In this document: positions 2,940 through 37,465 of the stretch, in pieces
How the letters are laid out: every line of letters starts with the position of its first letter
Position numbering within the stretch: position 1 is the stretch's first letter
Virus record (IMG/VR): IMGVR_UViG_3300032315_001187
Coordinates: 1-61,125 of that record
From: a virus
Strand: one strand, 5' to 3'
Length of the DNA stretch: 61,125 nucleotides
Position numbers and translations under genes: made by a program
Notes under the pieces: model-generated
What the model was told of the DNA's origin: nothing
What the model saw: the letters and a program-made list of their open reading frames with translations, nothing else
Databases searched by the model: none

Positions 2940-3212
2940 TTACGACCCAGGGACAGAACTGTCTAAGTTCTGAATGAGGTCGTACATAATGACCACTTTG
3001 TTAGTGATTGTTTCTGCATGGTTGATGAGACTTTCACCAGGCAGCGGCCAGTCGCGAGTCACTCGCACGTCCGTAATGCCTTCAACGTGCTTCCAATCGA
3101 AGCCTTCATCCATGGCACCCTCCTCAAAACAGAGCACCACTTCCATGTCTTCATGGTCCATGATGTAGGCAGCTTGAAGGGCTTCAATCAACTGAGAGAT
3201 TTTCATAGTCAT
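2940..3212 (-). CDS. 90-aa hypothetical protein
   Basis: Unrecognised acidic protein of about 90 residues starting MTMKISQLIEALQ. The start at 3212 (or the second Met at 3206) lies inside the end of the ribbon-helix-helix gene, a 29-nt overlap. The frame stays open to 3323, but the extra N-terminus has poor protein character. A similar start and a following acidic strand recur in small phage proteins of unknown role. It probably belongs to the recombination operon. Confidence 0.65.
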   Translation of the reverse strand: MTMKISQLIEALQAAYIMDHEDMEVVLCFEEGAMDEGFDWKHVEGITDVRVTRDWPLPGESLINHAETITNKVVIMYDLIQNLDSSVPGS

Positions 3213-3441
3213 CAAAAGAAGGTGGTAGTTCGGGCGCGGTGTAATCCACGCAAAGGGACCATGCCCCATTGGAAAGACTCGTGGAGCCCTCCCAGGCAGG
3301 AGTGCAACGGATGAGCCGCTCAAGCGCTTCGCTGCGGGACAGCTTTGCTTCTGAGGCGATGTTGTCTAAGTGGTCAACGGCATCTTGCGTGAGCGTGAAG
3401 TGCCTCTTGACCTTGGGGCTGTCGTAACTGGATTTCGGCAT
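3184..3441 (-). CDS. ribbon-helix-helix DNA-binding protein
   Basis: About 85 residues from ATG 3441. Residues 10-46 (VKRHFTLTQDAVDHL then ASEAKLSRSEALERLIR) match a ribbon-helix-helix fold: a beta strand followed by two helices, with the SRSE turn typical of CopG/Arc-like proteins. It is the first gene of the minus operon and faces the primase gene, so it may autoregulate the divergent promoters. The frame extends upstream to 3576 and would add a Cys-rich segment (CRNGSCGYCGEEPRRHC), so a longer zinc-binding form starting at a GTG cannot be excluded. Confidence 0.7.
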   Translation of the reverse strand: MPKSSYDSPKVKRHFTLTQDAVDHLDNIASEAKLSRSEALERLIRCTPAWEGSTSLSNGAWSLCVDYTAPELPPSFDDYENLSVD

Positions 3442-3588
3442 GCAGTGGCGCCGTGGTTCCTCCCCACAATACCCGCAGGAACCATTCCGACAAGCCTTTG
3501 AGCGATAAGAATGCCTTATGGCCACTGGGATTGCAGGAAAACGGCTTGGATGCCATGATGCTAGGTGGCAAACCATATTTTCCTTTTC

Positions 3589-5544
3589 ATGACGTTCTCA
3601 ATCCTGGACTTCCTAGACCAGTTGGAGCCCAGTAAGGAGTCAGGCAAATTCATGTGTCCCGCATGTGGGAACAATGATTTCTCCGTCAACAAGAAAAATG
3701 GTGCCTACACCTGTTGGCATGACGACTCCCCTGCCCACCGCGCAGAGATCAGGGATGTGCTGGCTCCGATGGTGCGATGGGAAAAGCCGCCGAGGGATCC
3801 CGGCAACTACACCTTCTCCTACAGGAACCAAACCGGCTTAGAAGTGGTGAAGGTTCACCGCGACGACACCTCTGGCAACAAGCGCATCTGGCAGGAATTT
3901 CCCACCATCGACCCCACCGCTACGGGGCAGAAGACGCAACTGCAGGAGGTGAAGGCGACCATCCTTCCCTTCATGTATGAGGAGGCTATTGCTGAGAGCG
4001 CTGCCACTGGTCTTCCCATTGTCGTGGTAGAAGGCGAACTCACCTGCCAAGCCGTTTGGTCCATCGGCCTGCCTTCCGTCACCTTCCTGGGTGGCAGCAA
4101 GCAGTACCGCACCAATGGTGACTACGCCAGCCTCTTCAAGAATCAAAAGCTAGTCCTGGCCCCCGACAGGGATGAGCAGGGCGTTGCCTTCATGAAGGAA
4201 GTGGAGGCTGACAATCCTGGAGCGCAATGGCTCTATGCGGATCCACGCTCTTGGGAATGGCAGAACCTGCCCAGTGGGAATGGCCTTGACCTGGCCGACT
4301 ACATTGCTGAGGGCGTCACTAAGGACGATTTGCTTTCCTCCATCGTTTCCAAAGGTAAGCATGCTGGTAAAGACGGCAAGCCCGCATACGAGGAAATCAT
4401 TTCAACAGTGGAAGGTTTTGTTGGCCTCTATGCCAATGATGCTCGTATCACCTACGAAACTGCTAACTGGCTGGAAATGCGTGGCGTGAAGATGAGCCAG
4501 GCCAATGTTGACAAGATTATTGACGAAGCCAAGAGTCGCATTTATGGCAAAGAGGAAATTGAAACCATTGACGCCCTCACCATTGCCAACACCGAACAAT
4601 GCCGCGAATGGTTGATTGCTGGCATCATGCCCCTCGGAAGCGTGATGCTACTGGCTGCATCAGGCGGTACTGGCAAAAGCACCATCGTCTACAACTGGGC
4701 ACTCAATATCGCCCTTGGCCAACCATGGAGCGGAAGGCGCTGCTACAAAGGCAAGAGCCTGATCATTCAAAGTGATGAACCATTGGTGGACACCAGCGAA
4801 AAACTTGGCGTGATTGGCTTCAAGGAAGCTGGCCTGGAAGCTGGCACCATTGCCTTCTGGGAGAACTGGCGCTTTGGCCACATGAAGCAGCTTGAAGACT
4901 ACGTAAGGAAACATCGCCCAGCCTTTGTTGCCATTGACTCCCTCACTGCCTGTCTCGCTGGCATGGACGTGGACTTAGTGAAGAGTAATGCGGGTGACGT
5001 GATTTACGGCCTCCGGGACATTGCTAATCAATACAAATGCAGCATTATCATTCTCCACCACTTAAACAAGAGCGGCGGTCTGAGGGACTCAACAAGTTTT
5101 GTTGATAACGTGAGTGAAGTGGTTAAGCTCACTCGTGCTGAGAACAATGGCGATCCCAATCAATTTGTTCTGGAATGGTTGAAGAGCAGAAGCGGCCTCA
5201 CCGGCAAGCATAATCTGCAACGCGACACGCTGTCCTACGGCTGGCGTTATGCAGGCCCTCAAGGTGGTTCCCTGGAAGAGCTTGACCAAGTGGTGAATAC
5301 TGTCAACATGCGCAAGACTGAACGTTTCACCAAGCAACAAGTGGCGTCCATGTCTGGCACCTGGGATAACTCATCCACGGGCAAGATGCTGGAAGTTGCA
5401 CGTCGGCAAGGCTTAATCACTAGCAGCTTCGAGTTTGGTCCCAATGGGGAACGCAAGCGTCTCTATCATTCCTGGGACTACAAAGAACCAGACACTGATT
5501 TTGTGGAGGCGCCTGAAACTGTTGCCGCTCACGATTTCTTCTAA
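3589..5544 (+). CDS. DNA primase-helicase
   Basis: A 651-residue replication protein. From the N-terminus: a CHC2-like zinc finger (CPAC, then CWH, about residues 23-44), a TOPRIM-like region with VVVVEGELTCQAV (about 143) and LAPDRDEQG (about 190), and a RecA/RepA-type helicase domain with Walker A GGTGKST at 359-365, SLIIQSDEP and IILHHLNKSGG. It would both lay down primers and unwind the fork. ATG 3589 is chosen over GTG 3565. A terminator-like hairpin follows 70 bp downstream. No DNA polymerase is seen in the window. Confidence 0.9.
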   Translation: MTFSILDFLDQLEPSKESGKFMCPACGNNDFSVNKKNGAYTCWHDDSPAHRAEIRDVLAPMVRWEKPPRDPGNYTFSYRNQTGLEVVKVHRDDTSGNKRIWQEFPTIDPTATGQKTQLQEVKATILPFMYEEAIAESAATGLPIVVVEGELTCQAVWSIGLPSVTFLGGSKQYRTNGDYASLFKNQKLVLAPDRDEQGVAFMKEVEADNPGAQWLYADPRSWEWQNLPSGNGLDLADYIAEGVTKDDLLSSIVSKGKHAGKDGKPAYEEIISTVEGFVGLYANDARITYETANWLEMRGVKMSQANVDKIIDEAKSRIYGKEEIETIDALTIANTEQCREWLIAGIMPLGSVMLLAASGGTGKSTIVYNWALNIALGQPWSGRRCYKGKSLIIQSDEPLVDTSEKLGVIGFKEAGLEAGTIAFWENWRFGHMKQLEDYVRKHRPAFVAIDSLTACLAGMDVDLVKSNAGDVIYGLRDIANQYKCSIIILHHLNKSGGLRDSTSFVDNVSEVVKLTRAENNGDPNQFVLEWLKSRSGLTGKHNLQRDTLSYGWRYAGPQGGSLEELDQVVNTVNMRKTERFTKQQVASMSGTWDNSSTGKMLEVARRQGLITSSFEFGPNGERKRLYHSWDYKEPDTDFVEAPETVAAHDFF

Positions 5545-6542: not shown

Positions 6543-7235
6543 ATGCCTAGTCCCGATATTAATTTTCTCTCAGAAGAAGCCGAGCTTAAATATGGAGTGA
6601 AAACTCTGCTGGAAGCTGGTTTCACTGCGAAACAAATTGATCGTATTAGGCATGAAATTGGTGTGGGCGTTGATAAAACGCCCTACAGCAAGGAGCTAAC
6701 TGGGCAACGTCGTCACATGACGAGCGAATTGCTAGCGGCCAACATGAGCAACAGTCAAATTGCTCGCGTCTTGAAACTGAGCAAGGAAACTGTCAATGCC
6801 GATAGAAAGCACATTAGGCAGCTCTACACCGAGGAAATCCTTAAAAGTGCTGACGTCCATCGTGCCCGTCTCCTCAAGGAACAAATGGACCTCAAGGATG
6901 TGGCAATGAAGAGTTTTGAGGGCAGCAAAAAGAAACGCACCATCACCACTAGTGACAATGGCGAAGAAAATAGTAGTTCGATGATCAAGATTGAAGAAAG
7001 CGCTGGCGATGCCAGCTTTTTAAACGTGGCCAAGAACTGTCTGGTTGAACAAGCTAAGCTCTTGGGCCTCAATGAACTGCGACCACAGCAGGAAGAAAAG
7101 AAAGACTACAAGAGTTTCCTGGATGACCTGGCAAAGACTGTGGGCGACATTAAAGAACGTGAAGCTAATTCCACTGCCATTGATGCCACTGTTGCAGACG
7201 ATGACGCTTCTACTGCCATCGTTTCATTATCTTGA
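6543..7235 (+). CDS. putative terminase small subunit (HTH protein)
   Basis: A 230-residue protein with a helix-turn-helix at about 58-85 (LLAANMSNSQIARVLKLSKETV), a long helical middle and the late element NCLVEQAKLLGL, a phrase common near the end of phage small terminase subunits. Such proteins recognise the packaging site and load the large subunit. It lies 19 kb from the large subunit and on the opposite strand, which is unusual, so a transcriptional regulator is the alternative. Confidence 0.5.
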   Translation: MPSPDINFLSEEAELKYGVKTLLEAGFTAKQIDRIRHEIGVGVDKTPYSKELTGQRRHMTSELLAANMSNSQIARVLKLSKETVNADRKHIRQLYTEEILKSADVHRARLLKEQMDLKDVAMKSFEGSKKKRTITTSDNGEENSSSMIKIEESAGDASFLNVAKNCLVEQAKLLGLNELRPQQEEKKDYKSFLDDLAKTVGDIKEREANSTAIDATVADDDASTAIVSLS

Positions 7236-7902: not shown

Positions 7903-8293
7903 GCTTCCCCCCATTGTTAATCTCTGCATCCCACCAGCATTGTTGGCTGATGCGGAGGCAATTGCCGCCGAACATCCTCCAGTGCATCCCGCATGGTGCA
8001 AACTGCAGCGTCGTGGCAAGCATTTCGTCATTCGCACGAATGATTTAGAGGACATCACGGAAGTGGCTGACTGGGCCCGGTCAGCTTTAGTAGAACCGGC
8101 TAGCCCTTTAACAAAGACCAAAAGGCAAGCCTTCCAGGCCGTCCTAGACAGGGCTCATCGCTATGCCGAGATGGTGCCACTTGGCTTTTCCCATTGCATT
8201 GCCGTGAAGTGGCGTGACAAGCCATTATCAGGCGGCAGTTTTGTGCGTAGTGATGGCAGCCTCAAAAGCGAGGCTAAAGATAAGAAACACTAA
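7892..8293 (+). CDS. 133-aa hypothetical protein
   Basis: Unrecognised. It starts MTNKLPPIVNLCIPP within the last codons of the upstream gene. The middle contains WCKLQRRGKHFVIRTNDLEDITEVADWARSAL, and the C-terminal third is basic. It ends with the A of TAATGG shared with the next start. No membrane segment. It is a member of the coupled run of small genes. Confidence 0.65.
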   Translation: MTNKLPPIVNLCIPPALLADAEAIAAEHPPVHPAWCKLQRRGKHFVIRTNDLEDITEVADWARSALVEPASPLTKTKRQAFQAVLDRAHRYAEMVPLGFSHCIAVKWRDKPLSGGSFVRSDGSLKSEAKDKKH

Positions 8294-9372: not shown

Positions 9373-9715
9373 CCACCTTCCCACCGATCTCAGCCACCTC
9401 AGCGAGGAAGAGTTCAATTCGCTCTGCCCGCAAGGTGAACACGCACCAGGACCAGCAGTGACCACCGACTTCCGCGCCCTGTGCGAAGAACTTAACGGGT
9501 TACTGGAATACATTTCTGACATAAGTCCCCATCTTTGTGAAGACGAAATTAACAACCTGACAAACAGCGCACGCGCCGCCTTGGCTGAGCAGCCGGTGGG
9601 GCCCACGGATGAGGAGCTGTGGGAGGCATGGGGGTGTTTCGAGCACGAGCCTTTCAGTAAGGGGGACACCATTATGCAGTTGCGTGAGTTCCTTGCTCGC
9701 TGGGGGCAGTCATGA
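9365..9715 (+). CDS. 116-aa acidic protein
   Basis: Starts at the AATGACTGACC junction. It is acidic and modular: an N-terminal LSEEEFNSLCPQGEHAPG segment, a middle with Cys and Leu-rich helices, and a C-terminal PVGPTDEELWEAWG motif. I associate the last with small proteins of picocyanobacteria and their phages. Function unknown. It is coupled to both neighbours by overlapping stop and start codons. Confidence 0.65.
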   Translation: MTDHLPTDLSHLSEEEFNSLCPQGEHAPGPAVTTDFRALCEELNGLLEYISDISPHLCEDEINNLTNSARAALAEQPVGPTDEELWEAWGCFEHEPFSKGDTIMQLREFLARWGQS

Positions 9716-15241: not shown

Positions 15242-15256
15242 TCATAAAATATTACA

Positions 15257-15280
15257 AAGGGGCCATAAGGCCCCTCTTAT
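15257..15280 (+). terminator. terminator hairpin
   Basis: Stem GGGGCC (15259-15264) with GGCCCC (15269-15274), loop ATAA, followed by TCTTATTCC. It lies between the 119-aa gene and the 63-aa gene. Confidence 0.65.
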
Positions 15281-15292
15281 TCCTTCCAAACC

Positions 15293-15484
15293 ATGATTCT
15301 TGTTGATTTCTTTTCCCATCGTTCCTGTTTAGGCACAGAACTTATTGAAGGATGGTATTGGTATGAAGACGATGGGGAAGAAAGTGGTGGGCCTTTTGAT
15401 GATGAAGAAGATGCTACTTTTGCTGCGCAATTAGGAGAAAAATCTAGGCCGCATGAAGATTTTACTTTTCCTTTCAAACGATGA
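15293..15484 (+). CDS. 63-aa acidic protein
   Basis: Very acidic in its centre (YEDDGEESGGPFDDEEDATF) with a hydrophobic start and a basic end. Such charge patterns occur in DNA-mimic inhibitors, but this is speculation from composition. Its stop codon abuts the first 22-bp repeat of the control region. Confidence 0.5.
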   Translation: MILVDFFSHRSCLGTELIEGWYWYEDDGEESGGPFDDEEDATFAAQLGEKSRPHEDFTFPFKR

Positions 15485-15572
15485 AGGGACTTGCTCAAAG
15501 GCGGTAAGGACTTGCCAGAAAGCGGTAAGGGACTTGCTGGGAAACGGTATGGGGACTTGCTGAAAGACGGTA
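15485..15572. repeat. four tandem 22-bp direct repeats
   Basis: Copies at 15485-15506, 15507-15527, 15528-15549 and 15551-15572. All keep GGACTTGC near the left and CGGTA at the right end; the middle varies. The 21-22-bp period is about two helical turns, so a bound protein would sit on one face of the DNA. Confidence 0.9.
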
Positions 15573-15587: not shown

Positions 15588-15613
15588 AAAGGCCGCCGCC
15601 GCCCGCTGCTGCT

Positions 15614-15659
15614 AGTACGCTTGTACCATAGTACACACATACTATAGTACGTTTGTACT
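15614..15659. repeat. three AGTAC-N4-GTACT palindromes, exact 16-bp period
   Basis: Copies at 15614-15627, 15630-15643 and 15646-15659. Two have AGTAC-N4-GTAC; the middle one is a looser version. Their centres are exactly 16 bp apart. Confidence 0.85.
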
Positions 15660-15661
15660 AT

Positions 15662-15854
15662 ATAAGCAAAACTTATCATTCCGGGCTGAATCATAAGCTC
15701 AGCTTATACTATAAGCCCAGCTTATCAATCGGGCCTCAATCATAAGCCTGGCTTATTATATAAGCCCAGCTTATCTTTCACGAGCAAACCATAGTCCCTG
15801 CTTATTTTATAAGCTCAGTTTATGGTTTGAGAATAAACCATAAGCTGCGCTAAT
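15662..15854. repeat. eight palindromic 15-bp iterons in a 49-bp higher-order repeat
   Basis: Consensus ATAAGC-NNN-GCTTAT. Copies start at 15662, 15693, 15711, 15742, 15760, 15791, 15809 and 15840. Centre-to-centre distances alternate exactly 31, 18, 31, 18, 31, 18, 31 bp. Outer copies are slightly degenerate; copy 6 is ATAGTC-CCT-GCTTAT. Spacers alternate between 3 and 16 bp. No gene crosses the array. The form is that of an iteron origin or a centromere-like site. Confidence 0.95.
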
Positions 15855-15987: not shown

Positions 15988-16575
15988 ATGCTCGCTTCTC
16001 TCCATGCCCTGCAGGGCCTCGAGGCCCTCGCTCTCACCGCCGCCCGTATCTGGGCCGCCGCTGGTGAACTGCTAACCGCCGGAGCGATCCTATGGGCCCT
16101 GGATGCCCTCGCCCGATCAATCCGCCTCGCCTATTCAATGGGCCGCACCATGGGCCGCCTTCTCTGGCCCGTCCTCCATGCTCTCGCGGCTGGTGGCCGG
16201 TGGTTCGCCGCCCACATCGACTGGGCAGAGGTGGCCGCCGTGGTGGTTGACTGCTTAAAGGCCCTGGCTGTGCTCTGCTGGCTGGTGGCTGTTGAGGGCC
16301 GCCGCCTCCTTATCTCCGCCTCCGCCGATATGGGCCGCCGTTACTCCGCCGCCCTCGCTCCTTCTCTGCCGGTGGTGGTGGCCTCCGCTCCCTCCGCTCC
16401 CTCCGCTCTGCCCGTTGCCCCTCTGCTGGTGGTGGTGGATCCCTCTCCCCATCCTCTCGCCGTGGTGGCCGCTTCGCTTGAGGCCCTCACTTGTAAGGAA
16501 CTCCGGGCCCTTACCGGCACCCGCCGGAAACTACCCAAGGCCTCGCTGGTGGCCCTCGCCCTCGCCCTCGCTTAA
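15988..16575 (+). CDS. 195-aa membrane protein with SAP-like C-terminus
   Basis: Ala/Leu-rich, with about three hydrophobic segments in residues 1-110, then a Pro/Ala/Val-rich linker (residues 125-160). A final LTCKELRALTGTRRKLPKASLVALAL helix pair resembles the SAP/HeH-type DNA-binding motif. A membrane anchor joined to a DNA-binding tip could tether DNA to the membrane next to the iteron array, but this is inference. Codon use is extreme (GCC, CTC, CGC) like the rest of this block. Confidence 0.55.
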   Translation: MLASLHALQGLEALALTAARIWAAAGELLTAGAILWALDALARSIRLAYSMGRTMGRLLWPVLHALAAGGRWFAAHIDWAEVAAVVVDCLKALAVLCWLVAVEGRRLLISASADMGRRYSAALAPSLPVVVASAPSAPSALPVAPLLVVVDPSPHPLAVVAASLEALTCKELRALTGTRRKLPKASLVALALALA

Positions 16576-16688
16576 TTGTAAAGAATTGTAACGATGGGGG
16601 CCGCCCGTGCTGGTGGCCTCCCTCGCCCGTGCCATGCTCTCCATGCCGGAGCGATCCGGCCCAACCGTCAACCACCGCACCGCTCTTC
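16576..16688 (+). promoter_or_regulatory. promoter/leader of the Gp88-like gene, copy B
   Basis: TTGTAAAGAATTGTAACG (16576-16593), 40 bp with a GGGGGCC/GGCCTCCC hairpin, then CATGCT. The leader contains the tetraloop hairpin CCGGA-GCGA-TCCGG about 30 bp before the ATG at 16689. The hairpin recurs in the leader at 18484-18499. Confidence 0.45.
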
Positions 16689-17816
16689 ATGGCCTCCGCC
16701 CTCGCCTCCGCTCCCTCCGCCCTCTCCTCTGCTGATCGTGCCGCCTTTAGGGCCGCTGATGCCCCTGCTAAGGCCCACCTCGCCCGGTTCGGCCTGACGC
16801 TTGAGGGCCTGCTAACCGTGGGGGCCTCCAATGCGAAACTAGCCAAGGGGGCCGCTCAGGCCCGCGCCGTGATTCTGCACCACTTACCGGCCCGCTCCCT
16901 CTCCCAGGCGGTCTATGGTGCCGCCGCCGGCCCTACTGCCCCGCGCTCTCGCATTGATGGTTTGGAGGCCCTCGCCCTCCGGAATGAAATAGGCGGGCTA
17001 GTGGGCTCCCATGATGGGTGCCCGTGGAAGTCGGCAGGCTGTGAAAACGGCTGCCTCGCATGGGCTGGGCACGGTGGCATCAGTAGCACCGTGGCATCCT
17101 GCAGGGCCCGCCGGACCATGGCTTTCATCTACAACCCCGGCGGCTACGCTGTGGCTGTGCTGTGGGCGATTGCCCGCGAATACAAAAAGGCACAAGCCCA
17201 GAGCCTCCCTCTTGCGGTTCGCCTCCGGGGAACGGATGATCTCCCTTGGCACGAGCTCCGATTCACTCTCTACGCTGACGAGGCCCGCGCCATGGCCCAC
17301 CGTTACGGGCTGCCCGTGGTGCCGGGCCTGGGAACCACCATCCCCGAGGCCCTCGCTTTGGTGCCTGGTTTGGAACAATACGAATATTCCAAGGCTCCCC
17401 TAGAGGGCCCCTACGGTCTCAGAGCGCAACGGGCCGCCGGAGTTGATACCACCGCCTCCCTTGCTGCTGATCGCCCTCAAGGCCTCGCCCGTAGCCTTGA
17501 GGCCGTGGCTGCAGGGTTCCGCCTCGCCGTTCCCGCAGGGTTCCCCAAGGGTTCCGCCCTTCCCTCCGCTCTCCTTCTCCGGGCCGATAGCGTCTCGCCC
17601 GTGGTTCGCCTCGCCTGCCTTGATGGTGACGTGACGGATCACCGCTGGGCCGATCCCCAAGGGCCGCAGGGCCTGGTTTGGGATGGCGTGGCTGTGATCC
17701 TGCGGACTAAGCGCTCCGCTGGTGCTGGGGCCGCCTCCAAGGCTTTCAGCCTCTCGCCCGTGGTGGGAGAGTGGCAGGCCCTCGCTGGTGGTGGCCTCGC
17801 CCAGTGGGAGGCCTGA
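16689..17816 (+). CDS. Gp88-like phage protein
   Basis: 375 residues. The core matches the phage Gp88-type family by eye: a Cys cluster GCPWKSAGCENGCLAWAGHGG, a basic helix (CRARRTMAFIYNP), LAVRLRGTDDLPWHE and a late YEYSKAPLEG. Members occur in many phages and mobile elements; their biochemical role is unknown. The Cys residues suggest a metal site. The start at 16689 gives SD-poor but consistent spacing after the leader hairpin. The codons are dominated by CTC, GCC and CGC. Confidence 0.65.
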   Translation: MASALASAPSALSSADRAAFRAADAPAKAHLARFGLTLEGLLTVGASNAKLAKGAAQARAVILHHLPARSLSQAVYGAAAGPTAPRSRIDGLEALALRNEIGGLVGSHDGCPWKSAGCENGCLAWAGHGGISSTVASCRARRTMAFIYNPGGYAVAVLWAIAREYKKAQAQSLPLAVRLRGTDDLPWHELRFTLYADEARAMAHRYGLPVVPGLGTTIPEALALVPGLEQYEYSKAPLEGPYGLRAQRAAGVDTTASLAADRPQGLARSLEAVAAGFRLAVPAGFPKGSALPSALLLRADSVSPVVRLACLDGDVTDHRWADPQGPQGLVWDGVAVILRTKRSAGAGAASKAFSLSPVVGEWQALAGGGLAQWEA

Positions 17817-17819
17817 GCA

Positions 17820-18059
17820 GTGGGGCCCTCTCGCTTCCATGGCACCCGCCGCATTGTTCGCCTCGCCCTTCTCCGCCCTCCCTCCCATGCTCCGCTGGTG
17901 GGGGCCGCCCGTTATAAGGTCTGGCCCTCCCGCCCCGTGGGCCATCGTGATTCTCGCTCCCTTCTCCTCCGCCTCCCTGGTGGCCGCCTTCTCCGCCTTC
18001 TCTATCGGACTGCCACAACCACGGCCCAGCAGATCCGCCGCCTGGGTCTGGTGGACTGA
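17820..18059 (+). CDS. 79-aa very basic protein (uncertain frame)
   Basis: GTG start 4 bp after the upstream stop. Arg-rich protein with a C-terminal TARTATTAQ-like helix ending RRLGLVD (YRTATTTAQQIRRLGLVD). Other frames are also open here because the block is GC-rich, so the frame is chosen for gene-like spacing and the plausible end. Function unknown. Confidence 0.4.
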   Translation: MGPSRFHGTRRIVRLALLRPPSHAPLVGAARYKVWPSRPVGHRDSRSLLLRLPGGRLLRLLYRTATTTAQQIRRLGLVD

Positions 18060-18113
18060 TCGCCTCTCCCAGGGCCCCTCTCCCTCTCCCTCTCCCCTCC
18101 GCTCTCCCTCTCC

Positions 18114-18416
18114 ATGACCTCCCTCTCGGTTCCCTTCTCTCCCCTCGCCTCCCGTGGTTCCGCCCTGCGATCAGTGGGCCTGTCCCCTCACCTTCCGCCG
18201 CCCTCGCCCTACCGCCTACACTCCGCCGCCTCCGCCCATCGCCTCGCCTCTCCCGTGGCTGATCTGCTCGCCCAACGGTGGGCCTCCGTTGTGATCCGCC
18301 TGGGCCCCGATGCGTTCAACGACTGGGCAGATCGGGCCCTCCCTGAGCTGGTGGCCACTGGTGGGGCCTTCGCTACTCTCCGCTGGCTACTAGCAGAGGG
18401 GCCAGCCGATTATTAA
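18114..18416 (+). CDS. 100-aa hypothetical protein
   Basis: Low-complexity Ser/Pro-rich first half, then a folded-looking end (RWASVVIRLGPDAFNDWADRALPELVATGGAFATLRWLL). Start ATG 18114. The second half has an ordered amphipathic pattern that supports translation in this frame. No family recognised. Confidence 0.5.
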   Translation: MTSLSVPFSPLASRGSALRSVGLSPHLPPPSPYRLHSAASAHRLASPVADLLAQRWASVVIRLGPDAFNDWADRALPELVATGGAFATLRWLLAEGPADY

Positions 18417-18519
18417 GAAAAGTAACAATGGGGGCGGCTGGTGGTTGACCGCCTCGCCCTGGGGCCCATAATGGTTGCAAGCCCGGAGCGATCCGGGCCG
18501 CCCTCCGCTACTGTCTCCC
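18413..18519 (+). promoter_or_regulatory. promoter/leader, copy C
   Basis: A degenerate motif TTAAGAAAAGTAACA ends 40 bp before CATAAT, with a GGGGGCGG/CCGCC hairpin between them. The leader holds CCCGGA-GCGA-TCCGGG at 18484-18499, the same tetraloop hairpin as copy B. The gene starts at GTG 18520. Confidence 0.5.
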
Positions 18520-18699
18520 GTGATTGCCTACAACACCCCGACCAAGACTTGGATTGTTACCGCCCCTAACGGCTTTGGCCTAATGGAGCAGATCGGGCAC
18601 GATCACCCCACCGAGAGGGCCGCTCTCGCCGCCCTCGCCCGCCTCCGCCGCCCTCAAGCTGGACGCATTGAGACCGTCACCCGCACTTACAGGGCCTGA
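18520..18699 (+). CDS. 59-aa hypothetical protein
   Basis: From GTG 18520: VIAYNTPTKTWIVTAPNG, a strand-turn-strand, then PTERAALAALARLR and IETVTRTYRA. It reads like a compact alpha/beta protein with a common 'repeat a helix between two strands' plan. Upstream codons of the frame lie on the leader hairpin and are not included. A GGGCCCC/GGGGCCC hairpin follows at 18706-18725. Confidence 0.55.
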   Translation: MIAYNTPTKTWIVTAPNGFGLMEQIGHDHPTERAALAALARLRRPQAGRIETVTRTYRA

Positions 18700-18761
18700 T
18701 CGCCCAGGGCCCCCATCGGGGCCCTCTCCTTCTCCTTACAATCCCCTCCGCTCTGCTCTCC

Positions 18762-18929
18762 ATGCTCTCCCTCTTTATCCGCCGCCCTTGTTTCGTGGCT
18801 GGTGGCCTCGCTGCCGCCGCTCTCCTCTCCCTCGGTGCCGCCCTCCATGCTCAAGATCGGGCCCTTCTCAAGGCCTGCCTGGCAGGGCCGGAGCCCGCAG
18901 CCTGCCATCTCCGCCTCTATGGGCGGTGA
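18762..18929 (+). CDS. 55-aa membrane protein with a Cys pair
   Basis: N-terminal basic MLSLFIRRP, a membrane helix (FVAGGLAAAALLSLGAAL), then a tail with C-x8-C (CLAGPEPAAC) and LRLYG. The plan and the C-x8-C spacing match the gene at 12654. A GGGCCC hairpin follows the stop codon. Confidence 0.5.
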   Translation: MLSLFIRRPCFVAGGLAAAALLSLGAALHAQDRALLKACLAGPEPAACHLRLYGR

Positions 18930-19044
18930 TGGCCCTAGGGCCCCCCATGGGCCCTCTCCTCTCCTCTGCAGTCACTAGGCCTTAGGGCCGCCCGCCAACA
19001 CCGTCACAGCTCCGCCTAGGGGCCGTAGGCTGTCTTCGTTATTC

Positions 19045-19184: not shown

Positions 19185-19325
19185 TTACTCGTCGTCTAGT
19201 TTGGTTAATTTATTGAGTAGAATGTCGCATCGTTTGAGTGTGTCTTGAATGTCGCGGTTGAGTTCATCATCCCGCTGTTTCAATTCATCTAACATAGCGG
19301 CAAACGTGTCAGCTATAACGCCCAT
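19185..19325 (-). CDS. 46-aa coiled-coil protein
   Basis: MGVIADTFAAMLDELKQRDDEL..., a single charged amphipathic helix. The frame is open to a GTG at 19373, but a good promoter has its -10 box at 19377-19382, so transcripts would start inside the longer version. ATG 19325 is therefore the better start. A terminator follows. It stands alone as a monocistronic minus-strand gene; function unknown. Confidence 0.55.
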   Translation of the reverse strand: MGVIADTFAAMLDELKQRDDELNRDIQDTLKRCDILLNKLTKLDDE

Positions 19326-19376
19326 AGTGATTGTGGGGTAGTTTGAATAACGAACTGGTCGCCCAGTCCGCACCCC

Positions 19377-19404: not shown

Positions 19405-19470
19405 GTTAACTTAACAACACTTAACATAAGATATCCTGATCGTTCCCATAAGCAATCCTTATCTGATCGT

Positions 19471-20200: not shown

Positions 20201-20700
20201 GAACAGCTATAAGTTGCGCCAATCATATCAGGAATCCTGATAAATGGCAAATATCGAGATTCTCAATAATCGCCTGTTTTTCCCATTGCCTCTTGGGGCT
20301 CATCGAGCAGGTAGCTCCCCAAGAGCGTCATAGCTTGAGCCCTTTCTTCCTTCTTTTTTCTCTTTTTTCTTCCTGGCCGTGTGCGAGCACAGTTTCAGCG
20401 GCTTCAGGCTCTCGCGGGAATAATTGAAAAGGAGATGGAGGGGAGGGAGCCTAGTGATCGTAGTCGCTTGAGGCTCTTCTCGAAGGCTCCCTTGGCGGAG
20501 GTGCTAAAGGAAGAAGGAGAAGAGCCGCTGGGGAAGGATCGCCTTGGGGGCTCCCGCTCGTAGCGGCTCATGGAGCTAAACGTTACGAGCGTGTGCATCG
20601 CCTTTCCCTATCATAAAGTTTATTGCGAGGGAGTGTTTTACTCCCGACAGCGGAGAGGTGCTAGTATTTGCAGTGTTTCAACAATTTCAGGGAGTAGTTC
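20201..20700. other. 500-bp region without a convincing gene, several inverted repeats
   Basis: Two weak open frames (20381-20563 plus, 20404-20598 minus) overlap antisense and have no family. Inverted repeats: CTTGGGG...CCCCAAG (about 20292-20325), GAGCCGCT...AGCGGCTC (about 20522-20571) and GGGAGT-GTTTT-ACTCCC (about 20629-20645). A structured transcript or leader of the GIY-YIG gene is possible. Confidence 0.4.
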
Positions 20701-21435
20701 ATGGGAAATTTGCCAGTCAGAAAGCCAGCGGAGGTACGGCAACCCGTACCAACTGGTTGGATTTATATTATCCAATGGGAAAACGATCCACACAGCGTCA
20801 AGATTGGCTTCTCCACTGACCTGCTTTCAAGGATGGCTTCGTTCCTGACGGCATGCCGCCATAGTCTTCTCATCTTGAAAGTCTTTAAGGGCCCCCAAGA
20901 GGAAGAACAAAGGCTTCACGAGCGCTTCGATAGCTGCAGGGGCGATGGGGAATGGTTTGATTTCACTCCTGGCCTGCAACGTTTCATCCGACAGGAAATG
21001 CCATGCCACACAAAAGAAGCTCGCACATTATTCGGGGGCAAGATGAGTGCTCGCGTGAAGTGGCAACCACTCACTAGCACCAAAAGGGAATTGTTGGAGG
21101 TGGCACAGAAGGCTTGCCGTGTGCCTAAGTTTGTCAATAACGCTAGGGACTATGTGCTTTGGACAATTGAGGATATTGACGGTCAAGGTTTCTTTTGCAC
21201 GTCAAACGGAATCATCCACCACCCATCGAACCAAGGATTGTATGAAGTGAAAACCATTTACAACTCATTGGCAAGTGTTGTTGCCGATGGTTTGGCCACT
21301 AAGAACTCAGCCAAGTGCTACAGGCTCACTGACGAGGGCATGGCCATGCTGCTTAAAGCCGAGCAGGATTACGAAGACCAACTTCCGGCTAGGAAAAGCG
21401 CACCATCTACTCGTCTTGGCAGGGGCATGTTGTGA
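20701..21435 (+). CDS. GIY-YIG/T5orf172-type endonuclease
   Basis: 244 residues. The N-terminal domain (GWIYIIQWENDPHSVKIGFS, then EEEQRLHERFDSCRGDGEWFDFT) matches the GIY-YIG-like T5orf172/MUG113 group: the first strand pair replaces GIY-YIG, and the R/H and E residues follow. The C-terminal half has no recognised fold. ATG 20701 has GGGAG 8 bp upstream. Possible roles are homing or host DNA damage. Coupled to the next gene by GTGATG. Confidence 0.7.
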   Translation: MGNLPVRKPAEVRQPVPTGWIYIIQWENDPHSVKIGFSTDLLSRMASFLTACRHSLLILKVFKGPQEEEQRLHERFDSCRGDGEWFDFTPGLQRFIRQEMPCHTKEARTLFGGKMSARVKWQPLTSTKRELLEVAQKACRVPKFVNNARDYVLWTIEDIDGQGFFCTSNGIIHHPSNQGLYEVKTIYNSLASVVADGLATKNSAKCYRLTDEGMAMLLKAEQDYEDQLPARKSAPSTRLGRGML

Positions 21436-24269: not shown

Positions 24270-24473
24270 TGCTACACTGATCAACGACGGAGGGCAGTCC
24301 CCTGCTTGCACGGCTGCTCCATCGCCCCCGCTCTGCGTGGTCTGGAAATTTCCGGGTGTAGCATCGGGCCAGAAGGGACGCCTTCTTACGGTATGGTCAG
24401 CCGCCATGGACCTTCGGGCCTCTGATGGGAAATGGACTCATCGCCCCTAAGCCTCTCAACGATGCTCAAACCT
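24268..24473 (+). ncRNA. structured RNA candidate next to a tRNA-like gene
   Basis: About 200 bp without coding potential. GATGCTACAC (24268-24277) pairs perfectly with GTGTAGCATC (24356-24365). Inside lie GGAGggCAG/CTGCTCC (24289-24297 with 24314-24320) and a CTGGAAATTTCCGG palindrome, giving a multi-branched fold. Outside it are AGAAGG-GACG-CCTTCT (24371-24386) and ATGG-N7-CCAT. GGCAGTCCCC occurs here (24293-24302) and again as the acceptor strand of the tRNA. Not recognised as a known family. Confidence 0.4.
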
Positions 24474-24550
24474 GGGGCTGCTGGATCTGAAGTGTTGGCA
24501 CACGCTAGGCTCATAGCCTAGAATTCCGGGTTCGATTCCCGGCAGTCCCC
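24474..24550 (+). tRNA. tRNA-Met-like gene (anticodon CAT), unusual D domain
   Basis: A 7-bp acceptor (GGGGCTG with CAGTCCC, one G-U), a 5-bp anticodon stem CTAGG/CCTAG with loop CTCATAG, a 4-nt variable loop, and a perfect T arm CCGGG-TTCGATT-CCCGG. No CCA is encoded. The D region is abnormal: 24 nt lie between the acceptor and anticodon stems, with only GTG-TTGGCA-CAC as a stem. An alternative acceptor strand (GGATCTG, 24483-24489) gives normal spacing but two mismatches. Confidence 0.55.
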
Positions 24551-27120: not shown

Positions 27121-27607
27121 TGAGAGTGCTCATCGGCATCAATGCCGTTTTGGGAACAAAATATGCTGGTCTACCGCCAGCGGGATCGGACCAATATTGT
27201 TCTTTCATTGCATCCTTGCCACGAATCCAGCCATGAATGACGGTTTTCTTGTCTTGAATGGTGACAAGAACAAATTTCTTATTGGGACTTTCGTTCTTTT
27301 GCACGATTAAATCATAACTATGGCGACTGCGGGTTTTCACATCTATGCCGGGCAGATCGCAGGAACCACGCTTGGCCTCGGTTTCTTTATAAAGAAATTC
27401 TTTAAGACCAAGATACGAAGCAACTGCCATTTCCCCTGCGGCGCCCAACAAGTGAATGGTGAGAGCCATTGCTCCCGTTGCTACTCCCCCATTGCGCCCC
27501 TTGAGTCCCCGTATTTCGTTAATTGCTTGCCTGCGGAAGGCTTCCTTGCAGGCCGCTTTGCGTTCTTCCTCGGTAAAGACGAATTCAATGGGGAGAGTGG
27601 GGGCCAT
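27107..27607 (-). CDS. PD-(D/E)XK-fold protein next to the terminase
   Basis: 166 residues. LLGAAGEMAVASYLGL provides the first Glu, and CDLPGIDVKTRS gives the D...(I)DVK core; SYDLIVQKNES follows. This matches restriction-endonuclease-like folds found in phage proteins. A packaging-linked or host-DNA nuclease role is likely but unproven. It is the first gene of the minus-strand packaging operon, behind the promoter at 27628-27655. Confidence 0.65.
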   Translation of the reverse strand: MAPTLPIEFVFTEEERKAACKEAFRRQAINEIRGLKGRNGGVATGAMALTIHLLGAAGEMAVASYLGLKEFLYKETEAKRGSCDLPGIDVKTRSRHSYDLIVQKNESPNKKFVLVTIQDKKTVIHGWIRGKDAMKEQYWSDPAGGRPAYFVPKTALMPMSTLNGSN

Positions 27608-36876: not shown

Positions 36877-37184
36877 GCGAATACGTAAGAGTGATCGAAG
36901 CTGAAGAGGATGGCATTGGCGTGATGAAAGCGCTTGCCATTCTTTCATCCAATGAGCATCGCGACACCAGCGAGTGGCACTTGGTGGAGAAGCAATGCTT
37001 CAAGAATGGACGACTGGACGAAACGCATATTTACTGCGAGAGTCACTATGACAAGCCCGTTCCTTATTTTGAAAAAACCAAGTTTCTCACTTTTGAAGTG
37101 GAGGCAATGGCAAAGGCATATGTGATGGAAAGCATTGAAGAACAACTGCGTGACATTCGTGAGGGAGATGACGGCGAGGATTAA
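36873..37184 (+). CDS. 103-aa acidic protein
   Basis: GTG start overlapping the upstream TGA. Acidic alpha/beta protein: EYVRVIEAEEDGIGVMKALAIL, HLVEKQCFKNGRLDETHIYCESHY, ending in GDDGED. No family recognised. It ends 4 bp inside the convergent repressor-like gene. Confidence 0.55.
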   Translation: MSEYVRVIEAEEDGIGVMKALAILSSNEHRDTSEWHLVEKQCFKNGRLDETHIYCESHYDKPVPYFEKTKFLTFEVEAMAKAYVMESIEEQLRDIREGDDGED

Positions 37185-37465
37185 TCCCTTACGGCATTGA
37201 CAATAAAGCTGGGCATTCCCAGGAGCCACAATACGGATAGGCCGTAGAGTCCACTAATAGTTGCTAACTGCACGGCACTTGGTTCCGTTTCTCCGCTTTC
37301 AATGCGACAGTAAGTGGATTGTCCAATGTGCAATACCGCTGCCACGTCACGCTGACTCAGGCCGCTATTTAAGCGTGCATCTTTCAACCGTGAAGCTACC
37401 AACGCACGACGTTGGTAGTGTGGCATGTTCAACGCATTGACACTGCTGGCCATCATCCTAGTCAT
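37181..37465 (-). CDS. Cro/CI-type helix-turn-helix regulator
   Basis: 94 residues. RLKDARLNSGLSQRDVAAVLHIGQSTYCRIESGETEPS is an XRE/CI helix-turn-helix; the C-terminal LATISGLYGLSVLWLLGM is hydrophobic and may dimerise. It is the only such regulator in the window. It is oriented against the head operon and diverges from the protease gene, so it could control the late promoter in the 60-bp gap at 37466-37525. That gap holds TTGTTTGCTATTCT and AAGAAT half-sites in opposite orientation. Confidence 0.8.
   Translation of the reverse strand: MTRMMASSVNALNMPHYQRRALVASRLKDARLNSGLSQRDVAAVLHIGQSTYCRIESGETEPSAVQLATISGLYGLSVLWLLGMPSFIVNAVRD

Follow-up and report, generated by a model that had tools for sequence, protein, structure and literature searches.

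A dyad array with 31/18-bp spacing upstream of a Gp88-family gene in relatives of Synechococcus phage S-CBS4, most likely a stress-linked operator

Eight 15-bp dyads, with centre spacings that alternate between 31 and 18 bp, form an array upstream of a Gp88-family gene in an uncultivated viral contig from fresh water (IMG/VR record IMGVR_UViG_3300032315_001187; the 61,125-nucleotide stretch analysed is called the window here), and no fewer than 19 distinct relatives have the array in the same place. The array most probably serves as an operator linked to host stress. In its full form, to which we give close to even confidence, this reading describes a composite cis-regulatory operator upstream of gp88 that would be bound cooperatively by a phage-encoded dimer next to host LexA, with a ribbon-helix-helix (RHH) protein of the phage as the most likely regulator. 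The papers searched contained no description of this locus.

Dyads and flanking boxes in the window

TerL of the window is 68% identical to that of Synechococcus phage S-CBS4, and phage homologues were found for the primase-helicase, an exonuclease, a Sak-like annealing protein and both ribonucleotide reductase subunits; the host is probably a picocyanobacterium. A tyrosine integrase (PF00589) was found in two of 13 records and not in the window, so there is no evidence that the phage is temperate. S-CBS4 belongs to the same phage group and likewise has an RHH gene upstream of a RecA-family ATPase gene and an annotated transcriptional repressor before the head protease, but the small ORF that anchors the locus described here was not found in it, and neither a dyad array nor a cluster of LexA boxes was detected. 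The RHH homologue of S-CBS4 (NC_016766.1) is unannotated, and can be read on the minus strand upstream of gp082.

The array occupies positions 15662–15854 (no strand assigned) and consists of four 49-bp units with two dyads each. Dyads of the form ATAAGC-NNN-GCTTAT start at 15662, 15693, 15711, 15742, 15760, 15791, 15809 and 15840, and their centres, seven positions further on, lie at 15669, 15700, 15718, 15749, 15767, 15798, 15816 and 15847, giving steps of 31, 18, 31, 18, 31, 18 and 31 bp. Compared with ATAAGCNNNGCTTAT, dyads one to eight have 1, 0, 0, 0, 0, 2, 1 and 1 mismatches; the full consensus occurs exactly four times in the window, always inside the array. These centres and spacings are, to the base, those reported in the earlier note, which had been made from the letters of the window, and its 49-bp unit in four copies was returned independently by a repeat finder (49-nt copies at 15661, 15710, 15759 and 15808, spaced 49/49/49 and 63–76% identical). 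Seven dyads with at most one mismatch fall within 300 bp at the array, whereas 2000 shuffles of the same composition averaged 0.116 and never exceeded 2, and chance origin is thereby ruled out. The half-site ATAAGC/GCTTAT given in the earlier note was found as stated, but its inner G/C is less conserved across relatives, and the site is better written ATMAG-N5-CTKAT. Exact dyads of this form number nine in the window, against 0.23 expected per shuffled window.

The gap around the array holds several features that the earlier note left out. Downstream of a terminator-like, bidirectional hairpin (15256–15277) lies a small ORF of 63 amino acids on the plus strand (15293–15484), which served as the locus anchor in relatives (80 loci). 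Between this ORF and the next one, at 15988, come in order a set of direct repeats, tandem palindromes and the dyad array. The direct repeats are four iteron-like copies of approximately 22 bp, GGACTTGCT-NNAANNCGGTA, of the form GGACTTGCT...CGGTA (15484–15572, plus strand). Similar repeats of 21–23 bp (GGACTTGCT..CGGTA or GGNCCGGCTGG..GTAT) directly follow the small ORF in many relatives, even where the dyad array has been replaced. The tandem 16-bp palindromes, TAGTACNNNNGTACYA / TAGTACNNNNGTACTA (15613–15660), are LexA-type boxes: positions 15614–15627 and 15646–15659 fit exactly the LexA box consensus of cyanobacteria, RGTACNNNDGTWCB / AGTACWNWTGTACT (PMC3091678), with a degenerate copy at 15629–15642. 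The gap showed no convincing promoter.

Among 64 homologous regions, 34 contain LexA-type boxes, where shuffles give an expectation of 1.15, and 15 contain Fur-like boxes of the form AATGA-N-AATCATT (0.05 expected). In 16 of the 19 distinct arrays the first dyad has a LexA-type box no more than 60 bp away, and in eight of the 19 the distance between the two, centre to centre, is 14.5–17.5 bp. Sequences resembling Fur boxes (e.g. AATGAGAATCATT) were seen in locus L059 (180–480 after the small ORF), L034, L062, L065 and L087, at several loci near LexA-type boxes, and L059 also has a long tandem array of 16-bp LexA-like elements after the small ORF. In three further loci (L045, L063 and L095) a gene that by eye resembles a homing endonuclease stands between the small ORF and the array.

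The first ORF downstream of the array (15988–16575, plus strand) encodes a membrane-like protein of 195 amino acids with a C-terminal SAP-like motif, recognized by eye, and among 12 relatives it is present only in the closest, G001. It is followed by the putative target gene, encoding a Gp88-family protein (PF17338; 16629–17816, plus strand) with invariant Cys131, Cys138 and Cys142. A profile search placed a Gp88-family gene after the locus in 10 of 13 records, and in G006 the protein at this position has a Cys motif that looks similar by eye. A structure model of Gp88, of moderate confidence, had no match in the PDB. The gp88 gene lies in an island of 67–68% GC (16000–19000) in a genome otherwise of approximately 49% GC; the plus strand of the island has a strong excess of C and T, with a GC skew of −0.09 to −0.25 and an AT skew down to −0.31. 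Islands of this kind are also present in G001, G002, G004 and G009.

Spacing and slot content among relatives

Relatives were gathered by searches with the Gp88-like protein, with the small ORF and with the dyad pair itself, and the 19 arrays counted are those, out of 38, that are mutually no more than 90% identical. Consecutive dyads in them are separated by 18 bp in 39 cases, 31 bp in 42 and 32 bp in six; three further steps of 49 or 50 bp reflect one decayed site skipped, and steps of 13, 22 and 42 bp occur once each. Since every array was retrieved through an exact 18-bp pair, 19 of the 39 18-bp steps are there by selection. The counts do not rest on a lattice walk along the arrays, since that walk allowed steps of 18, 31 or 32 bp only. 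Steps of 17, 19, 30 or 33 bp were not seen in any of the 19 arrays. Half-sites drift among relatives between ATAAG, ATCAG and ATTAG, with ACAAG/CCTAT-like forms in G003 and G009, while the distances hold, and a 16-bp linker in the long step, CATTCCGGGCCGAACC, is conserved across arrays. With a helical repeat of 10.5 bp, three turns (31.5 bp) fall between 31 and 32 bp, and 18 bp corresponds to 1.7 turns.

The earlier proposal that spacing outlasts the decay of half-sites is thus borne out by no fewer than 19 distinct arrays in related phages. Its alternation without exception is true of the window, and the 18-bp step is never off by one base, but the long step can be 31 or 32 bp among relatives. 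Relatives with intact function and no conserved array, which the earlier note had named as evidence against its reading, were found in part: G012 and others have a different array in the slot.

The same slot is indeed occupied by quite different arrays in other phages of the group. Three loci (L071, L037 and L043) have TAGCATCTCGYGCTA dyads, for the most part with distances of 21 and 17 bp; L052 has CTTAAC repeats with a period of 38; L034 has 34-bp repeats, L035 and L013 have 25-bp repeats, and L033/G012 have TGCTGCACT repeats. A search for a gene that tracks array type by presence or absence yielded antisense or spurious ORFs only. The Fur-like boxes, the unrelated arrays in one slot and the LexA boxes beside the first dyad together point to regulation. 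The fixed slot could conceivably be a modular specificity cassette, for immunity or origin type, in which interchangeable arrays, each probably with its own binder, lie beside host LexA and Fur boxes, so that the cassette would set the compatibility of co-infecting phages and sense host stress; we consider this unlikely. Swaps of unrelated arrays within a single slot could be exploited to match regulators to the arrays that they recognize.

Candidate binders and alternative readings

The leading candidate binder is an RHH protein of 85 amino acids, counted from an internal ATG and encoded on the minus strand (3187–3441). It matches PF01402 with 21.1 bits against a cut-off of 20.5, and its structure model resembles CopG and Arc, with a match probability of 0.94 for CopG (PDB 1b01) and weak Foldseek E-values. 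The gene is core and adjoins the primase gene in 11 of 13 records, the region being missing or cut in the other two contigs. A search of 386 genomes of the cyanobacterial phylum did not find the protein, save for one marginal match.

A single dyad, ATAAGAATGCCTTAT (3505–3519), lies in the divergent promoter region between the RHH and primase-helicase genes. We compared 63 deduplicated RHH promoters, which fall into two subtypes by protein motif, A ([KR][RKH]H[FVL]T[LI]) and B (K[GS]RH[FL][TS]). An exact dyad at a fixed position, approximately 77 bp upstream of the RHH gene, is present in 35 of 41 promoters of subtype A versus 0 of 22 of subtype B (Fisher p = 7e-12, with kinship of the phages ignored), and subtype-B promoters have 9-bp direct repeats, ATRGCC, in place of the dyad. 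Because the promoter dyad follows the subtype, subtype-A RHH proteins very likely recognize it, and the RHH protein at 3187–3441 would then be the most likely array binder in phages of this subtype. This agrees with the earlier note, which had listed the RHH protein among its candidates, of which it is the best. The array itself is not restricted to the matching subtype: the subtype-B phages G002, 3300042539_001764 and 3300035187_003955 carry the 31/18 array, and the RHH protein of G012 is 89% identical to that of the window, yet its slot holds a different array. Flanks also differ, the RHH operator being (GGCC)ATMAG...CTKAT(GGCC) and the array having the conserved CATTCCGGGCCGAACC linker. An XRE-type protein (37184–37465) was considered as binder and set aside; it is conserved, but no such dyad was seen at its own promoter in the window.

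In the composite operator that we favour, each 15-bp dyad would be bound by a phage-encoded dimeric regulator. Direct contact between dimers 18 bp apart, with pairs stacked in phase, would be the simplest reading of the spacing: the contact would fix the short distance, and the repetition of dyad pairs at about three helical turns (31–32 bp) would place them on one face of the DNA, where they could stack and bind cooperatively. One further dyad lies between the promoters of the RHH gene and the primase-helicase gene. Host LexA may occupy the boxes beside the first dyad, adjoining the array, and DNA damage could lift a block on gp88. Phage GIL01, in which the LexA boxes of a phage promoter need a phage protein, gp7, to work (PMC4551915), naturally leads one to expect that DNA damage would release repression in this way. 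In both systems LexA boxes of the host type lie in a control region of the phage, and a phage factor is likely to help; the difference is that gp7 does not bind DNA, whereas here, judged from sequence, a phage-specific dyad array adjoins putative LexA boxes. The likeness to CopG and Arc lies in the RHH fold, in a palindrome in the promoter region of the RHH gene and in half-sites about one turn apart. Unlike in those repressors, the candidate targets here are eight sites in 31/18 alternation, and promoters of the other RHH subtype contain 9-bp direct repeats. Little is known about how cyanophages perceive host stress or about whether many of them can be temperate. LexA-type boxes joined to a helically phased, phage-specific array would connect DNA damage to the control of phage genes in a concrete way that experiments can test. 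The rigid steps of 18 bp and of three turns would also lend themselves as a clean natural model for cooperative binding to DNA.

The earlier note had placed the array among iteron origins or partition sites. A replication origin is a minority possibility, in which the 22-bp direct repeats and the dyad array would be iterons of a phage initiator, the LexA and Fur boxes would regulate initiation, and array types would be swapped like the replicon specificities of PLEs, satellites of Vibrio cholerae with a modular origin and RepA domain, semi-palindromic iterons of approximately 30 bp and an initiator domain that covaries with the repeats (PMC8263062). The intergenic repeats here are likewise semi-palindromic and exchanged for other versions between relatives, but no covarying gene was found by presence or absence. 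The four direct repeats of approximately 22 bp (21–23 bp among relatives) that adjoin the array recall theta-plasmid iteron origins, which differ from this locus in that no Rep protein was found here and the array consists of dyads at two alternating distances. With the small ORF set as the start of each of 11 records, cumulative GC skew reached its minimum within 5 kb downstream of this ORF in eight and its maximum 28–44 kb away in nine, and third-codon skew of plus-strand genes was lower to the left of the locus than 10–33 kb to its right in all 11. These minima are not independent, since the genomes are homologous and share a gene order, and the C-rich island at 16–19 kb contributes in some. 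The skew therefore lends the origin proposed earlier weak support, against which stand the lack of a recognized initiator (the primase-helicase is core), the replication-competent isolate S-CBS4, in which no comparable array or LexA-box cluster was detected, and the single occurrence of the same dyad in promoter gaps.

It is improbable that the array serves an as yet unmatched transcription factor of the host, either as its operator or as a decoy that titrates it, in the way that the LexA- and Fur-like boxes would serve LexA and Fur. The other boxes in the gap do resemble host sites, the array occurs in phages of both RHH subtypes, and no phage gene tracked array type by presence or absence; however, the 18-bp dyad pair, the unit that was searched for, was absent from all 292 sampled genomes of the cyanobacterial phylum, its 12 matches among all genome contigs are scattered over taxa and chance-like (one in a Gastranaerophilales MAG), and the dyad at the phage RHH promoter follows the RHH subtype. 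A packaging (pac) site for the small terminase seems very improbable. Multi-site recognition is typical of pac sites and would suit an array of many sites, and an HTH protein of uncertain function (6543–7235) is conserved in 12 of 13 records, but the array lies 10 kb from terL, the ends of long contigs are not all at one place, and dyads are found at promoters too.

We regard the two remaining readings as remote. RHH proteins together with repeat arrays resemble ParR/parC-type systems, and this phage has both, which would suit a centromere-like partition site of a phage-plasmid; a search that covered ParA-type ATPases (PF13614) found none in 13 records, and no relative was found as a plasmid, so this part of the earlier interpretation is not upheld. 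As for an RNA structure or terminator in place of DNA sites, the strand gives a much better fold than shuffled sequence does (z = −5.9), but any set of palindromes folds in this way, which makes the z-score uninformative; there is no Rfam match at the array, and in many dyads one half-site has changed with no compensating change in the other (e.g. ACAAGC paired with GCCTAT in L020). An abiF RNA (Rfam RF03085, 50.7 bits) is present elsewhere in the window, at 24443–24550, with a tRNA following after 3 bp; both are unrelated to the array.

Further dyads outside the array

Two pairs of satellite dyads, absent from the earlier note like the single dyad at 3505, lie beyond gp88. One pair, 22 bp apart (19426/19448; 19426–19462), is 53 bp upstream of a small minus-strand ORF (19185–19373). 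The other, 18 bp apart (20209/20227; 20209–20241), with 20209 the weaker site, is upstream of an HNH-like gene and is conserved in G012 at 4091/4109. An ATAAG-N5-CTAAT at 8280, conserved with its equivalents, was set aside as a regulatory site; it looks like start-codon context (ATGG follows). A second small promoter-like module is present past gp88 in G003 (9607–9662) and G010 (27494–27549), with one dyad, an AGTAC-N4-GTACT palindrome and a shared AGCAGTA. Near the 18-bp satellite pair of the window is a gene for a T5orf172/MUG113 (GIY-YIG type) nuclease-like protein (20701–21435); Odn, the origin-directed nuclease of ICP1, has a T5orf172 domain (PMC8263062).
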